This document shows positions 41,974-55,866 of a stretch of DNA of 55,866 bases, one piece after another. The DNA comes from Archangium sp. (GTDB taxonomy: Bacteria; Myxococcota; Myxococcia; Myxococcales; Myxococcaceae). The translations under genes and the position numbers were made by a program. Numbering within the stretch: the first letter of the stretch is position 1; each line of letters begins with the position of its first letter. A model generated the notes under the pieces. It was given only the letters and a program-made list of their open reading frames with translations. It was not told where the DNA came from and did no database searches. The DNA lies in assembly GCA_030695565.1 (NCBI GenBank), contig JAUYRZ010000050.1, forward strand, positions 1 through 55,866. Reading direction: 5' to 3'.

Positions 41974-47911
<5,938 letters not shown>

Positions 47912-47999
47912 GCGTCTCCTTCGAAGAACCGACGAGCGTGAGCAGGCTACTCGACGAACATGACGCTGGTCATTGTCCGTGTTAGCTGCCCCCCCGCTC

Positions 48000-48716
48000 A
48001 TGGCTGCTTCCCCGCAGGTGTCAATCGTCATCCCCGTCTACAACGAGGAGGCCATCGTCGAGCAGGCGGCGACGGAACTCTGTGCCGGCCTCGATGCCCG
48101 TGGGTGGGACTACGAAATCATCTTTGCCGAGAACGGCTCTCGCGACCGCACGCAGGAGATTCTCGAGCGGCTCACGAAGGCCAACCCCCGGCTCAAGTGG
48201 TTCCATTCAGACCGCCCGAACTACGGGGTGGCGCTCAAACGGGGCATCGAACTGGCCCAGGGTGAGATCGTGGTGTGTGACGAGATCGACCTGTGCGATC
48301 TCGTGTTCTACGACCACGTGGTGCCGCCGCTCCTTCGGGGCGAGGCCGACCTCATCATCGGCTCGAAGGCCGCCAAGGGCGCCAGTGATCGCCGGCCGCT
48401 CATTCGGCGGGCCGCCACCCGGGTGCACAACGGGCTCTTGCGCTTCACCCTGGGCTTCAAGGGCACCGACACGCACGGCCTCAAGGCCTTCCGCCGGGAG
48501 CGCCTGATGCCGGTCATCCAGCGCTGCGTGGTGGACATGGACGTGTTCGCCTCGGAGTTCGTGGTGCGCGCCTGGCGCGAGAACCTCGACGTGCGCGAGA
48601 TCCCCATTCAGCTGGAAGAGAAGCGGCAGCCCTCGATTCACCTCTTCCGGCGCGTGCCCAACGTGCTCAAGAACGTGGCGCGGCTGGTGTACGTGATCCG
48701 CGTTCGCGGCGAGTGA
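48000..48716 (+). CDS. Family 2 glycosyltransferase
   Basis: 238 residues from the ATG at 48000. GT-A fold: VSIVIPVYNEEAIVEQA, FAENGSRDRTQEIL, GVALKRGIELAQGEIVV and an acidic metal-binding DEIDLCD in the DxD position. No membrane helices, unlike many polyprenyl-phosphate GT2s. Its stop overlaps the deacetylase start (TGATG), so the two probably act on the same glycan. Confidence 0.9.
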   Translation: MAASPQVSIVIPVYNEEAIVEQAATELCAGLDARGWDYEIIFAENGSRDRTQEILERLTKANPRLKWFHSDRPNYGVALKRGIELAQGEIVVCDEIDLCDLVFYDHVVPPLLRGEADLIIGSKAAKGASDRRPLIRRAATRVHNGLLRFTLGFKGTDTHGLKAFRRERLMPVIQRCVVDMDVFASEFVVRAWRENLDVREIPIQLEEKRQPSIHLFRRVPNVLKNVARLVYVIRVRGE

Positions 48717-49648
48717 TGCGGCTCTCGGCGCTGTCGGTCGATCTCGACTCGCTGCCGCACTACTGCCGCATTCAGGGGCTGCCTGAGACCCTGCTCGATG
48801 AGCAGGCGCGCGGCCTGGTCGCCAGCAAGGCGATCCCCCGGCTGCTCGAGCTGTTCGCCCGGCACCATTCGCCCGCCACCTTCTTCGTGATCGGCGCCGA
48901 CGTGGGTTTGCCGGGCATGCGCGAGGCTCTGCGGGCTTCCCACGCCGCGGGCGTCGAGTTGGCCAGCCACAGCTTTTCCCACGACTACGCGATCTCCCGC
49001 CGGCCACTCGCCGAGATCGAAGCCGATCTGGTGCAGTGCGAAGCGGCGCTGGAAACGGTCGGCGTGAAGCCGAAGGGTTTTCGGGCGCCCGGCTACACGC
49101 TTTCGCCGGCGTTGCTGCAGGCCGTGGCAGCGCGCGGCTATGAGTACGACTCCTCGGCGTTTCCGGCAGTGCCGTACTACCTGGCCAAGGGTTCGGTGAT
49201 GGGCGTGCTCCAGGCGCTCGGCCGGCCGTCACGAGCGATCCTCGATTCACCGCGGGTGTTGTTGGCGCCGCGCACGCCCTATCGGCCTTCGTTGCAGGCG
49301 CCGTATTCGAGAGGTGACAGCGCGCTGGTCGAGCTGCCGATGGCGGTGGCGCCCTTCACGCGGTTGCCCTTCATCGGCACGTTCGCCACCTCAGCGCCGT
49401 GGGTGGTGGTGGAAGCTGCCTTTCGTTCGTTGCGCCGGGACGTGTTGTTCAACTTCGAGATGCACGCGCTCGACGTGCTCGATCACACCGACGGCATCCC
49501 GAAAGAGCTGGTGCGCCAGCAGCGAGATCTTCAAGTGCCGGCGCGGGTGAAGCTGGAGCGGCTGGGCAAGTTGTTCGCCTGGCTCGGGGCCGATCGGGAT
49601 CGCGTCACCGTGCTCGACGCCGCCCGCCGCCTGAGTTCAAAACTCTAA
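48716..49648 (+). CDS. Polysaccharide deacetylase (NodB homology)
   Basis: 310 residues from the ATG at 48716. NodB motifs: SVDLDSL (catalytic Asp region), FFVIGAD, ELASHSFSHDY (metal His pair) and FRAPGY. Without a signal peptide it is expected to work on cytoplasmic lipid-linked sugars, the product of the coupled glycosyltransferase (inference). Confidence 0.9.
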   Translation: MRLSALSVDLDSLPHYCRIQGLPETLLDEQARGLVASKAIPRLLELFARHHSPATFFVIGADVGLPGMREALRASHAAGVELASHSFSHDYAISRRPLAEIEADLVQCEAALETVGVKPKGFRAPGYTLSPALLQAVAARGYEYDSSAFPAVPYYLAKGSVMGVLQALGRPSRAILDSPRVLLAPRTPYRPSLQAPYSRGDSALVELPMAVAPFTRLPFIGTFATSAPWVVVEAAFRSLRRDVLFNFEMHALDVLDHTDGIPKELVRQQRDLQVPARVKLERLGKLFAWLGADRDRVTVLDAARRLSSKL

Positions 49649-49667
49649 ATTCAGTTCACGCAAGGAG

Positions 49668-49705
49668 CTCCCTCTCCCTTCGGGAGAGGGGCGGGGTGAG
49701 GGTCT
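49668..49705. repeat. GC-rich palindromic repeat
   Basis: CCCTCTCCC TTC GGGAGAGGG then GCGGGGTGAGGG, between the deacetylase and the PEGA kinase. Confidence 0.75.
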
Positions 49706-49773
49706 CGCAGCGGTTTCACCTGAGCAAACGGGCATCCCCTCCACAGATCCACCGAGTAGGGTGCACGAGCTCG

Positions 49774-51300
<1,527 letters not shown>

Positions 51301-51307
51301 TCGCGCC

Positions 51308-52771
51308 ATGAACCGATGGACGGTGGTGATCGGCGCACCCGGGAGGACCTGGTCGGTCGAGTTGCCCGGCGGCCGCAGCGCGGTGGTCGGTCAGGCCAAA
51401 GGCAGCGCGCTCGAGATCACCGACGCCGGAGTCGCCGATCGTCACGTGTCGTTGTTGCCGCGAGACGAAGGCGTGGTGGTCGAGCCGCTGCGAGGTGGCG
51501 GTGAGGTGTTGATCAACGACGTACCCGCCAGCGCGCAGAGCGTGGTGCGCTCGGGAGACGAACTGCGAATCGGTGAAGCGCGGTTGCTCTTCACCATCGT
51601 TCCCACGGCGCCTCAGCCGAGGCCGCGCATGACGGGGCCGGAAGAGCTGATGAGCCGGCTGGAAGAAGAAGTGCGACGCGCCGGCATCGCGCGGCCGTTG
51701 GGCCTGGTGCTGGTCGCGTCACCCGGCCTCAACGTCGCCGCCCGGCAAGCGCTCGTGCGGCGCGTGGTCGACGAGGTGCAGCGCACGGGTGGTACTGCGT
51801 GTTTCGGCGAGCTGACCAGCGAAGTGCTCGCGGTGGTGTTGCCGGAAGTCGCGGCGACGGCCTTGAGCACGCTCTTCACCCGCTTGCCCGAGTTGGTCGG
51901 ACCGCGAGCCGCCGTCGCCGTGGCGCGCGCACCTGAAGACGGTCTCGACGCGGAGACGCTGCTGGGCGTCTGTTGGGATTCGTTGATGGGCGAGGCGGCG
52001 GAGCGGGGTGAGCCGGTCTACGTCGACGCGTCGATGGTGCGGCTGGCGGGGCTCTTCGAGTCGCTCACGGGCGATGAAGGCGCAGTCTGCGCAGTGGGCT
52101 CCCCGGGATCCGGCAGGCGCACCTTGCTCGAGGGTCTCGCGAGAGCCGCAGGACGGCGCCTCTTCGTGGTCTCTGCGCTCGACGGACCCGCTCTGACACG
52201 CGCCGTTGCCCGGACCGGCGACTGGGTGCTCGCGCGCGACGTCGATCGACTCGAGCTGACGGCACTTCGTGAACTGGTCTCCCGAACGAAGACACGCCTG
52301 CTCGCCACGGCGACGCGAGCGCCCGCGGGGAATCACTTTCTCCACGTGATTGAAGTGCCGCCGCTGAGTGCGCGCCGTGACGACGTGCTGCCGCTCGCCG
52401 AAGCGTTCGTCTCACGTGCGCGAGTCGCCGTCGGACGCCCTCGGCTCACCCTGAGCGCCGAGGCCCGCACGATGCTGCAGGCATGGCGGTGGCCGGGCAA
52501 CGTGCGTGAGTTGGCGAACGTGCTGGCCCGCGCAGCCCGAGCCGCCGTGCGCGACGAAATCGGCCGCGATGCTCTGCCTGCGCGCATGTCGAACGAAGCG
52601 CCCGCCGACGATTTCCGGGGTGCGATGGAATCAGCCGAACGCGAGGTACTGCTGGAGACGCTCGCGAGAACACGCTGGAATGTCTCCGCCGCCGCGCTGC
52701 GTCTGGGCATGCCGCGAAGAACGATCGTTCACCGCATGGCGAAGCTCGGCCTCAAACGACCAGCCCGATGA
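51308..52771 (+). CDS. Degenerate FHA - GGDEF-like - AAA+ - Fis HTH regulator
   Basis: 487 residues. An N-terminal FHA-like domain (about 18-98) has lost the usual GR and SRRH motifs (VGQ, ADRH). A central stretch (about 125-225) resembles a degenerate GGDEF: FGELTSEVLAVVLPE for the active-site strand and VAVARAPEDGLDAETLLG for the IGVA-PEDG segment. An AAA+ core follows with altered Walker A GSPGSGRRTLLE and no GAFTGA, then WPGNVREL, and a Fis-type HTH (about 450-485). Descent from sigma-54 activators is likely, but sigma-54 contact is not. It probably works with the adjacent kinase. Confidence 0.8.
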   Translation: MNRWTVVIGAPGRTWSVELPGGRSAVVGQAKGSALEITDAGVADRHVSLLPRDEGVVVEPLRGGGEVLINDVPASAQSVVRSGDELRIGEARLLFTIVPTAPQPRPRMTGPEELMSRLEEEVRRAGIARPLGLVLVASPGLNVAARQALVRRVVDEVQRTGGTACFGELTSEVLAVVLPEVAATALSTLFTRLPELVGPRAAVAVARAPEDGLDAETLLGVCWDSLMGEAAERGEPVYVDASMVRLAGLFESLTGDEGAVCAVGSPGSGRRTLLEGLARAAGRRLFVVSALDGPALTRAVARTGDWVLARDVDRLELTALRELVSRTKTRLLATATRAPAGNHFLHVIEVPPLSARRDDVLPLAEAFVSRARVAVGRPRLTLSAEARTMLQAWRWPGNVRELANVLARAARAAVRDEIGRDALPARMSNEAPADDFRGAMESAEREVLLETLARTRWNVSAAALRLGMPRRTIVHRMAKLGLKRPAR

Positions 52772-52971
52772 CGGCGGCTTTCTGCGCTGCGCACATCGGG
52801 CTGCTGCTTCCCGGATCGGTAGGGCGGCTGTAGAGTTGTTTACGGATTAGAGCGTGAGCTCTTGATTCAACTACGCTCACAAACGAACATCGAACCGCCG
52901 AATAAACCGGCAACCGGCACGGCAATAGGAGAACTCAGCCCCCACGAATCAAGTCTGCGGTGGGTGAACCG

Positions 52972-53289
52972 CTAACCCCTCGGGAAGGCGGAGCGAAGAA
53001 TCAAACTCCATCCCCTCTCACGGGCGCTCGCCTCAAGCATAGAGACGAACCCTTCTACAGTGGCAATCGTGGGTCGATTCGAGTGGTCTGCAATCGTAAG
53101 GACAAAACCCAATATGCGGTGAATCGTTTCATTGCAGGATCGGGCCTCGCCGAACTTTTCCTCGAGAAAGTAGCCCCGAGCGAGAATTGTGAGTTCGTGG
53201 GCATAGACGAGAAGGAACTCTTGGCGTAACTCGTCTGACATAGCGACGAACTGAGTAGCCACGGTCGTAGCATCGGAACGATCACTCAC
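52972..53289 (-). CDS. Small helical protein of unknown function
   Basis: 105 residues from a GTG; GGGAG lies about 12 bases upstream. Largely helical: DELRQEFLLVYAHELTILARGYF, ARSCNETIHRILGFVLTI. No family was recognised. It lies in the less GC-rich accessory region, downstream of the insertion sequence and, before that insertion, 3' of the barstar-like gene on the same strand. An antisense frame at 52960-53229 is less protein-like. Confidence 0.6.
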   Translation of the reverse strand: MSDRSDATTVATQFVAMSDELRQEFLLVYAHELTILARGYFLEEKFGEARSCNETIHRILGFVLTIADHSNRPTIATVEGFVSMLEASARERGWSLILRSAFPRG

Positions 53290-53411
53290 CGACTATCTCC
53301 CAACGAGTCCCTAGCTACAGGTTGTCCGGAAATTGAGCCACGTTTCCGAGGGCGCTGAAGCGCGCGAGGTGCGCGACGCGGAAAATCCCGCAGCAAATTC
53401 CGTCGCATACC

Positions 53412-53442
53412 CGAGGGGATCGACAAGCTCGATCCTCTCTGG
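53412..53442 (+). other. Hairpin in the insertion sequence leader
   Basis: GAGGGGATCGA CAAGC TCGATCCTCTC, a near-perfect stem about 35 bp before the transposase start; it may limit read-in translation. Confidence 0.45.
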
Positions 53443-53477
53443 CACCTCCTCGTGCGTGTCGTCAGAGGAGATTCGCC

Positions 53478-54869
53478 ATGAGCAAGAAGACGCGCGGCGG
53501 CAGCCGCCAGCCCGAGTTGTTCGGTCGCTCGAAGAGCCCCACGATTCCCATCGAGGAGAACCACCGACTTGTTCAACTGGCCGACAGGCTGGACTGGACG
53601 GAGTTGGAGCTGCGCGCCGAAAACATTCGGGCCAGCAAACTGAAGAATGGCGCTGGTCGGCCGCCACGGCTGCGCGCGCTCTTGGGCGCGATGGTGTTGA
53701 GAGCGACGAGGTACATGCCTTACCGAGTACTGGCCGACCAGATTCAGCACTACGCGCCAGCGCGCTACCTCTGCGGCCTGACCGAGACGGAATGGTCGCC
53801 GGACCACAACACGCTCCACGACTTCATGGAGTTGATGGGGGAGGAGGGAATCCGCTTCATCAACGAGTACGCGGTGGAGTGGGCGGTGGAGGAGAAGCTG
53901 GCCGACCCGAAGGTGTTGGTCGCGGATACGACGGCGCAGGAGGCGGCGATCCCGCATCCGAACGAAATTGGGTTGATGGCTGGCTTCCTGACGACGGTCG
54001 CCGCGGCGAGCCCTTCTGCTGGCGAGGTCTTCAAGGAGTTCGTTCAGGAGGCGGCCCCGCACCTCGATGCTGCGAAGAAGACAGCGCGCGAGTACCGGCT
54101 GTTCGCCAAGACGAAGGAGCTCAAGAACAAGGTGATGGGGCAGATGGCGACCATCGTCGAGAAGGTGCAACGGCAGCTGAAGAGGGCGATCGCCGCCGCG
54201 GCGATGCAGACGGCGCGGGTGAGCAAGTACGGCAAGGTGGCGCGGGCGAAGGTGCATCAACTCCACGAGACGATGACGAAGCTCCTGCCTCAAATCCGCT
54301 ACTGGTTGAAGACGGGGTGGGTGGCTGCGGGAAAGGTCATCTCACTGCACGTCCCGGAGCTGTATTCCATCGTTCGAGGCAAGGTCGGCAAGACGGTGGA
54401 ATTCGGCCTGTCTTGGGGCATCCGCCGTCTCAAGGGCGGCTATCTGCTGGCGACGGTCGCGACGACGAAGAAGGAGTTGCTCGACGCCAGGTTCGCGCTG
54501 AGCGCCGTCGACGAGCACATCGCGCTCTTCGGCAAGCCGCCCATCGCGTACGCCTACGACCGTGGTGGCTGGAGCAAGGGCAACGTTGCCGCACTGAAGA
54601 AGAGGGGCGTGAAAGAAGTCGGGCTGGCCCCCCGAGGGAGGGCGGAGTGGAAGGTCAGCGAGGCCACCAGGAAGAAGCTCGTGAACGAGCGCGCGCAAGT
54701 CGAAGGTGGCATCGGAACCATCAAGCACGCGAAGTACGGTTTCAACCGGCCGGCTGCTCGCTCCGCGAGGATGATGGGCTTCTGCGGTCAATCCGCGACG
54801 CTGGGTTTCAACTTGAACAAGCTGGTGCGGGAGTTGGCGAAGAGGGAAAAGATGCAGTTGGTCGGCTGA
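53478..54869 (+). CDS. IS transposase (IS5/IS1182-like DDE)
   Basis: 463 residues, intact, start preceded by GAGGAG. The N-terminal RALLGAMVLRATRYMPYRVLADQ and WSPDHNTLHDF resemble the DUF772-type domain of IS5/IS1182 transposases. Putative catalytic residues: Asp in VLVADTTAQEA (about 150), Asp in YAYDRGG (about 360), Glu in AQVEGGIGTIKHAKYGF (about 410). A Lys/Arg-rich central region likely binds DNA. No frameshift, so it could be active. Confidence 0.9.
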   Translation: MSKKTRGGSRQPELFGRSKSPTIPIEENHRLVQLADRLDWTELELRAENIRASKLKNGAGRPPRLRALLGAMVLRATRYMPYRVLADQIQHYAPARYLCGLTETEWSPDHNTLHDFMELMGEEGIRFINEYAVEWAVEEKLADPKVLVADTTAQEAAIPHPNEIGLMAGFLTTVAAASPSAGEVFKEFVQEAAPHLDAAKKTAREYRLFAKTKELKNKVMGQMATIVEKVQRQLKRAIAAAAMQTARVSKYGKVARAKVHQLHETMTKLLPQIRYWLKTGWVAAGKVISLHVPELYSIVRGKVGKTVEFGLSWGIRRLKGGYLLATVATTKKELLDARFALSAVDEHIALFGKPPIAYAYDRGGWSKGNVAALKKRGVKEVGLAPRGRAEWKVSEATRKKLVNERAQVEGGIGTIKHAKYGFNRPAARSARMMGFCGQSATLGFNLNKLVRELAKREKMQLVG

Positions 54870-54996
54870 CCGAACGCGGTCGATGCGAAACATATGGTCA
54901 CGCGTCGGCCAGTCGATCGCGCAACATCAACGAAATCAAATAGATAACAGCCGATTTTCGGGGAAATGACTCGCCGAATTTCCGGACAACCTGTAG

Positions 54997-55050
54997 CTAG
55001 TGTGAGGCATTCACAATACGAACCGCCCGCGGAAGCTTGTTGATATGCAT
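54997..55050 (-). other. Very short ORF with good ribosome-binding site, ending at the IS target site
   Basis: MHINKLPRAVRIVNASH, 17 residues, preceded by AGGAG nine bases upstream. Its stop TAG is formed with the CTAG target and would also be present before the insertion. Either a leader peptide or a remnant of a decayed gene. Confidence 0.3.
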
Positions 55051-55094
55051 ATTTCCACGCTCCTTAAGAACTAGCGTGCGGGCATTTCCATTCA

Positions 55095-55208
55095 TCATTC
55101 GCCCCGTAAGTCGATGTGCGCAGGGCGTTCGGTATGGATGCACATCCTCGACTCACTCAGTAGCCGGCCCAAAGCCACCTCAACCGCATGCGTCAGTAAT
55201 ATCCGCAT
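55095..55208 (-). other. Short ORF downstream of the barstar-like gene
   Basis: 37 residues from the ATG at 55208 (MRILLTHAVEVALGRLLSES ...), stop overlapping a further ATG. Possible remnant: adjacent frames also look protein-like (MSAEVARRIFACGYY from the ATG overlapping the barstar stop), which suggests a frame-damaged gene. Confidence 0.3.
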
Positions 55209-55236
55209 GCAAATATTCGGCGAGCAACCTCGGCGC

Positions 55237-55674
55237 TCATTGAATCAGAGTGCACGGGGGGAGGAGGCCAGCCACCACCTTGCGGTCTCGCTCAGCGAAC
55301 ACCACAGATAGTTCGTGGGATGTCTTCCGTGGTCGCGCACTTGCTGACGCGAGGATGTCCACGTAGATACGAAGTTCCTTCTCAGAAAGTTGCGGCAGTT
55401 CGTCATGAATCAACATGACGGGACCCGCGGCAAGCCAGGATAAATCACAAAGGCAATCAGATAGCGCATCCCAGTTTCGACCGAAGTAGTTCGGAAAATC
55501 AAGAGCATCTTTCAGCAAGCTCATGAGTTGACCCTTGTCTGACACACCCCCAGGGACCCGCGCCACGAAGGCTGGCTCGATCAGAGGCATCCTCGGGTCG
55601 GCAACGAAACGAAAATTCGGCGGGAGCGCTCTCACTGGGGATTGGCGACCGCGACTATTTGTGCCGACAGCCAC
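55237..55674 (-). CDS. Barstar-family ribonuclease inhibitor (immunity protein-like)
   Basis: 145 residues from a GTG. The barstar core is clear: LLKDALDFPNYFGRNWDALSDCLCDL, where FPNYFGRNWDAL matches barstar's toxin-binding face. Barstar-type proteins neutralise secreted ribonucleases of barnase or polymorphic-toxin type. No ribonuclease is seen in the window; the gene upstream runs off the edge. GC content is lower than in the main chromosome, and an insertion sequence lies nearby. Confidence 0.85.
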   Translation of the reverse strand: MAVGTNSRGRQSPVRALPPNFRFVADPRMPLIEPAFVARVPGGVSDKGQLMSLLKDALDFPNYFGRNWDALSDCLCDLSWLAAGPVMLIHDELPQLSEKELRIYVDILASASARPRKTSHELSVVFAERDRKVVAGLLPPCTLIQ

Positions 55675-55705
55675 CCTGAAACTGGAACACCGAAGGCGCC
55701 TAAGG

Positions 55706-55866
55706 TTACCCTTGAAGTGACGCGGCTAGCACTACTGCGGTGAGAGGCCCGCGGGCGTGATCGACCACTCGGAGATGCAGGCTGTAAATCGCCTCTGCGA
55801 GCTGAGTTCCTGATCGCGGTTTTGTCCCTCTTGCTCGGCGTTTCGCTCGGTGATCGAAGGCGTGCA
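55706..55866 (-). CDS. Possible gene end at window edge
   Basis: An open minus-strand frame enters from the edge and ends RSGTQLAEAIYSLHLRVVDHARGPLTAVVLAASLQG-stop, 31 bp before the barstar-like start. It reads like the C-terminus of a protein; a toxin partner is conceivable but nothing in the visible part shows it. Confidence 0.35.
   Translation of the reverse strand, partial: HAFDHRAKRRARGTKPRSGTQLAEAIYSLHLRVVDHARGPLTAVVLAASLQG

Follow-up and report, generated by a model that had tools for sequence, protein, structure and literature searches.

The gene at positions 51308–52771 of the DNA analysed here (55,866 nucleotides of Archangium sp., hereafter the window) encodes a regulator of 487 residues with enhancer-binding protein (bEBP) ancestry, which has lost the parts for catalysis and for contact with sigma-54, is kept under purifying selection and is linked to a kinase and to envelope-glycan genes. 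The explanation we favor, and which we regard as probable though far from certain, is that this bEBP descendant would be catalytically dead, would work independently of sigma-54, and would bind DNA close to its operon's sigma-70-type promoter. The first-pass annotation had proposed four joined parts (FHA-like, GGDEF-like, AAA+, and Fis), all of which are present in the ORF:

51308–52771, forward strand: regulator gene, 487 aa, with FHA-like domain, GGDEF-like domain, AAA+ remnant, lid, and Fis helix-turn-helix (ORF; the start agrees with the orthologues).
51308–51607, forward strand: FHA-like domain, residues 1–100, phosphothreonine pocket residues lost (Yop-YscD_cpl 1.6e-07 and FHA 0.0014, both below the Pfam cut-offs; motif table).
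51626–52003, forward strand: GGDEF-derived domain, residues 107–232, without the active-site motif and the I-site RxxD (profile chain to GGDEF via the intact relatives).
52013–52345, forward strand: shortened AAA+ core, residues 236–346 (83 residues from Walker A to the lid vs. 137 in the intact relatives; no GAFTGA).
52097–52120, forward strand: altered Walker A, GSPGSGRR, residues 264–271 (motif comparison across orthologues).
52226–52243, forward strand: Walker B position, VLARDV, residues 307–312, with DE changed to RD (motif comparison across orthologues).
52346–52612, forward strand: AAA+ lid, residues 347–435, with sensor II GNVREL kept (PF25601, 9.7e-18).
52625–52747, forward strand: Fis-type helix-turn-helix (HTH), residues 440–480 (PF02954, HTH_8, 8e-12).

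The FHA-like domain does lack the GR and SRRH motifs, as had been reported: GQ (residues 28–29) stands in place of GR and ADRH (43–46) in place of SRxH, and the NG pair is also changed, to GE (65–66). Its Pfam FHA score of 19.4 bits does not reach the curated cut-off of 20.7, which two orthologues exceed (31.4 and 32.6). The GGDEF-like part is likewise without its active-site motif, since GELTSE is found at the GG[DE]EF position. The RVVD at residues 152–155 was considered as a c-di-GMP I-site and rejected, as it lies off the I-site column, which reads QRTG.

The changed Walker A and the missing GAFTGA of the AAA+ part had been recognized correctly, but the extent of the loss had been understated: about 54 core residues, including GAFTGA and the Arg-finger stretch, are missing. 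Hence, the idea of a protein that kept its shapes and lost its catalysis holds for the enzymatic motifs, which are gone, but not for the AAA+ core, where about 40% of the residues between Walker A and the lid have disappeared. Among the sigma-54 activator features tested, the GAFTGA loop, Walker A GxxGxGK, Walker B hhhhDE, and the PF00158 match are all absent, and the AAA lid and the Fis HTH are present. Neither PF00158 (Sigma54_activat) nor GGDEF was found among the Pfam matches of the regulator at E values up to 1; the intact relatives described below match PF00158 at 1e-62 or better. Judged by its sequence, the regulator lies outside the sigma-54 activator family, as it does not show the features that define that family, and it is a clear member of the Fis/NtrC-type DNA-binding domain family (PF02954).

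The middle region did not match another fold in the profile comparison; its residues link to GGDEF via the intact relatives. The orthologue profile matched the profile of the intact relatives with an E value of 5.6e-12, and the latter matched GGDEF domains of the window's own genome at 4.3e-12, with controls (reversed, column-shuffled, and other domains) at 0.047 or worse. The direct comparison of the orthologue profile with GGDEF is weak (E 0.018–0.12) and, therefore, the homology claim rests on the intermediate family, two members of which match PF00990 on their own at about 1e-3, below the cut-off. According to these profiles, the middle domain is homologous to GGDEF, indirectly through the intact relatives. 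In the best of five models of this domain alone (pLDDT 72), alpha and beta elements alternate in an order that would suit GGDEF; in a fold search with this model, GGDEF chains reached Z values of 4.2–4.4 (VIA-align 2), together with unrelated rows of like Z, and Foldseek gave no match at E ≤ 0.001. This absence of a clear fold match is not taken as a new fold. A whole-regulator AlphaFold model computed with four close orthologues had a pLDDT of 40.5, too low for use.

The nearest relatives that the searches disclosed are intact FHA/GGDEF-like/sigma-54 AAA+/Fis activators with open frames of 600–900 aa (e.g., L150, L148, and L003), which share the domain order of the regulator and are homologous to it in every domain. 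Unlike the regulator, the eight intact relatives retain the FHA motifs GR, SRxH, and NG, a Walker A GxGK with its Lys, the Walker B DE (8/8), and GAFTGA or a close variant; seven out of eight (the exception being L003) have RxxD at the I-site position, and none has the shortened core. GG[DE]EF is absent from all eight and, therefore, GGDEF catalysis was most likely lost before the regulator family arose. The absence of the active-site motif is ancestral and shared with intact sigma-54 activators. Later losses, specific to the regulator family, were those of the I-site, GAFTGA, Walker B, some 54 core residues, and the NG pair of the FHA. As for the intact relatives themselves, L148, L150, L151, and L153–L156, without GG[DE]EF and with RxxD kept at the I-site position, are candidate c-di-GMP-responsive sigma-54 activators. 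In another respect, the open frame of one intact relative (L153:1-2496) runs on into a Ser/Thr kinase domain.

The phylogenetic distribution of the regulator was checked with a profile of residues 1–346 in 145 genomes of the order. This search retrieved 21 orthologues, including the regulator of the window, all within the family of the window and distributed over nine genera (g1, g2, g3, g5, g6, g14, g18, g37, and g40); relatives of the genus to which the window belongs have been submitted as Archangium sp. or as Myxococcales MAGs. A 22nd match above the profile threshold (G015, 7e-31) is an intact relative and was excluded from the count, and g19 carries a fragmentary copy. The profile search disclosed no orthologue in g8, g12, g16, g34, and g38, each represented by several genomes, where far weaker matches (E 1e-13 to 1e-30) correspond to an intact relative or to an FHA-like stretch. 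In the phylogenetic tree, the orthologues form one clade (100/100) with respect to the eight intact relatives, L063 (G017) being a long branch of uncertain placement at its base.

Pairwise dN/dS values are 0.08–0.25 for the whole gene and, by domain, 0.00–0.06 for the HTH, 0.00–0.13 for the lid, 0.10–0.27 for the FHA-like domain, 0.03–0.27 for the GGDEF-like domain, and 0.13–0.54 for the AAA core. Purifying selection acts on the regulator, with dN/dS below one in every domain compared; the lid and the DNA-binding end are the most constrained parts and the AAA core the least, so that the DNA-binding end is preserved, as had been claimed. The many lost motifs might recall a decaying pseudogene, a reading that is scarcely credible given a frame open throughout in the copies examined, the overall dN/dS values, an HTH value near zero, and the conserved synteny. 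The regulator is not decay debris, because 21 genomes share it and its dN/dS is below one; selection and presence in 21 genomes also rule out an assembly artefact. The two g40 loci (L164 and L165) belong to genomes of only 2.1–2.7 Mb, which keep the order TPR, kinase, regulator, nucleotidyltransferase; the FHA of their regulator is hardly recognizable.

What the reduced AAA+ core might still do can be discussed on the basis of its residual motifs. GxxGxG is present in every orthologue covering Walker A, with Lys replaced by Arg in all but two (L060 and L063); in 17 orthologues, Arg occupies the position of the Walker B Asp (13 RD, 2 RE, and 2 RS), and most orthologues retain the sensor II Arg. 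From the conserved P-loop and sensor II, nucleotide binding may remain. If so, the core could bind a nucleotide without hydrolysing it and thereby set dimerisation or DNA affinity, a possibility that deserves consideration and that we nevertheless regard as doubtful: no domain is under weaker constraint than the AAA core, with dN/dS up to 0.54, and in L061 this core is reduced to only 52 residues. Moreover, the change of the Walker A Lys to Arg usually weakens nucleotide binding. A broader and rather unlikely version draws on GxxGxGR, on the derived Arg-Asp in the place of Walker B, and on the kept sensor II; according to it, the core would have been rebuilt as a small non-hydrolysing ligand pocket that, together with the dead GGDEF-like module, senses a nucleotide and controls envelope-glycan genes at a sigma-70 promoter.

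The genes preceding the regulator in the window are the following:

43250–47911, reverse strand: zinc-ribbon and TPR protein, divergent from the operon (Zn_ribbon_4 and TPR matches; conserved synteny).
47973–48716, forward strand: glycosyltransferase family 2, likely start at 47997 (PF00535, 3e-17).
48713–49648, forward strand: polysaccharide deacetylase (PF01522, 1e-14).
49774–51300, forward strand: membrane Ser/Thr kinase, 508 aa, with a weak C-terminal PEGA (PF00069, 6e-35; K, HRD144, DFG164, and APE189 intact; one TM, 360–378).

The PEGA kinase described 7 bp upstream is indeed there, its ORF ending at 51300, but the PEGA match is weak (14.9 bits vs. a cut-off of 20.8). The order TPR protein/glycosyltransferase/deacetylase is widespread in the family, also where the regulator is absent; in the regulator-bearing genera, the kinase and the regulator lie behind these three genes, and in g40 the kinase directly follows the TPR gene. 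In most orthologues, the regulator is embedded in an envelope-glycan cluster (glycosyltransferase, deacetylase, kinase, regulator, nucleotidyltransferase, UDP-glucose dehydrogenase, and UbiA), the genes 3' of it in most loci being NTP_transf_5, UDP-glucose dehydrogenase, and UbiA. Directly behind the stop codon of the regulator, the window carries an insertion, and the expected downstream genes are on another contig of the same genome (C24), which is collinear with L054 up to the end of the regulator. The inserted DNA (52772–55866) contains a transposase-like ORF (53478–54869, DUF772), placed inside 24-bp perfect inverted repeats (53311–53334/54977–55000), and a barstar-like ORF (55237–55674). 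Several genera share a short divergent ORF (about 45–80 aa), found upstream of the regulator on the opposite strand in L157–L162, L166, and L061; its product has a hydrophobic start and ends in a charged tail such as PDGGKKRRDGKDDEDVR. No Rfam family was found in 46000–55866.

The linkage between kinase and regulator is genuine in most genera, but it is not obligatory, because one genome (G005) has lost the kinase, its best kinase elsewhere being 36% identical, and retains the regulator. This bears on the view that the neighbouring kinase makes a phosphothreonine which the FHA-like domain reads. The two genes are adjacent or near each other in most genera, and six genera retain the FHA Arg (VGRG), as that view would have it; this Arg is lost in the window's genus (replaced by Gln), in g37, and in g40, no orthologue retains the NG pair, most also lack the Ser, and the G005 regulator persists without a kinase, so that we deem a switch of this kind unlikely. 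It is very unlikely, too, that the regulator acts as a dominant-negative partner, blocking the intact FHA/GGDEF-like/AAA+ relatives via mixed oligomers. An intact relative (L003) does occur in its own genome and the lid is strongly conserved, but the two families are well separated in the tree, their HTHs differ, and the ring-assembly surfaces of the AAA core are largely gone.

Upstream of the glycosyltransferase gene, the following feature was detected:

47961–47984, forward strand: sigma-70-like operon promoter with a GAC-N10-GTC dyad, candidate operator (block shared by some of the regulator-bearing genera).

In almost all family members examined, whether or not their genera bear the regulator, the glycosyltransferase gene has a sigma-70-like promoter (in the window, ATGACG, 17 bp, and TAGCTG), and no sigma-54 site (GG-N10-GC with up to three mismatches) was found upstream of the glycosyltransferase, kinase, regulator, and NTP genes. 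GAC-N10-GTC, whose N10 spacing resembles that of NifA-type sites, occurs in the promoter spacer of the window, L053, L054, L166, L059, L060, and L118. It is absent from ten genomes without a clear orthologue and also from g5, g6, and G002, all of which bear the regulator. In the searched genomes of g1, g3, and g18, the promoter block has one exact site per genome, and a blind search for shared inverted repeats upstream gave no dyad motif above the shuffles. That GAC-N10-GTC is the operator of the regulator is only suggestive, because the genera are related (and their promoters shared by descent) and the GAC overlaps the -35 box.

Returning to the sigma-54-independent descendant that we favor, it would bind DNA in dimeric form, using the Fis HTH and the conserved lid, with GAC-N10-GTC as the candidate site at or close to the sigma-70-type promoter of the operon to which it belongs. 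Because this candidate site covers the -35 box and the spacer, the simplest role would be that of an autorepressor or a promoter-proximal modulator. The FHA-like and GGDEF-like modules might serve as binding surfaces for a partner or a ligand, and the kinase would modulate the regulator in some way that does not involve classical FHA-phosphothreonine recognition.

There are precedents for bEBPs that lack GAFTGA. VpsR of Vibrio cholerae, TyrR, DhaR, HupR, and the NtrC proteins of R. capsulatus and Caulobacter, that is, of Alphaproteobacteria, are descendants of this kind; several such proteins have been shown to act at sigma-70 promoters, and VpsR controls polysaccharide genes (PMC3162934, PMC10274813). 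The regulator shares with them the bEBP ancestry and the loss of GAFTGA, and by analogy it most likely works as these sigma-54-independent proteins do; its action with the sigma-70 RNA polymerase is putative and suggested by the sigma-70-like promoter of the linked operon. Their changes are substitutions or a deletion around loop 1 (PMC3162934, PMC10274813), whereas the regulator has been stripped of some 54 core residues, of Walker B, and of the Arg-finger stretch, and carries an FHA-like and a GGDEF-like part at its N-terminus. It thus represents a known type of protein taken to an extreme. In the open-licence literature searched, no papers on myxobacterial FHA/GGDEF-like/AAA+/Fis proteins were found.

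The loss is much deeper than the change at or around one loop in the sigma-54-independent bEBPs of the papers cited above, and yet the lineage is under selection. The intact relatives in the same family complete a natural series in which one can ask what a bEBP still requires when the remodelling of the sigma-54 polymerase ends. Lastly, the analysis names a candidate regulator, together with a kinase, for a conserved myxobacterial envelope-glycan cluster.
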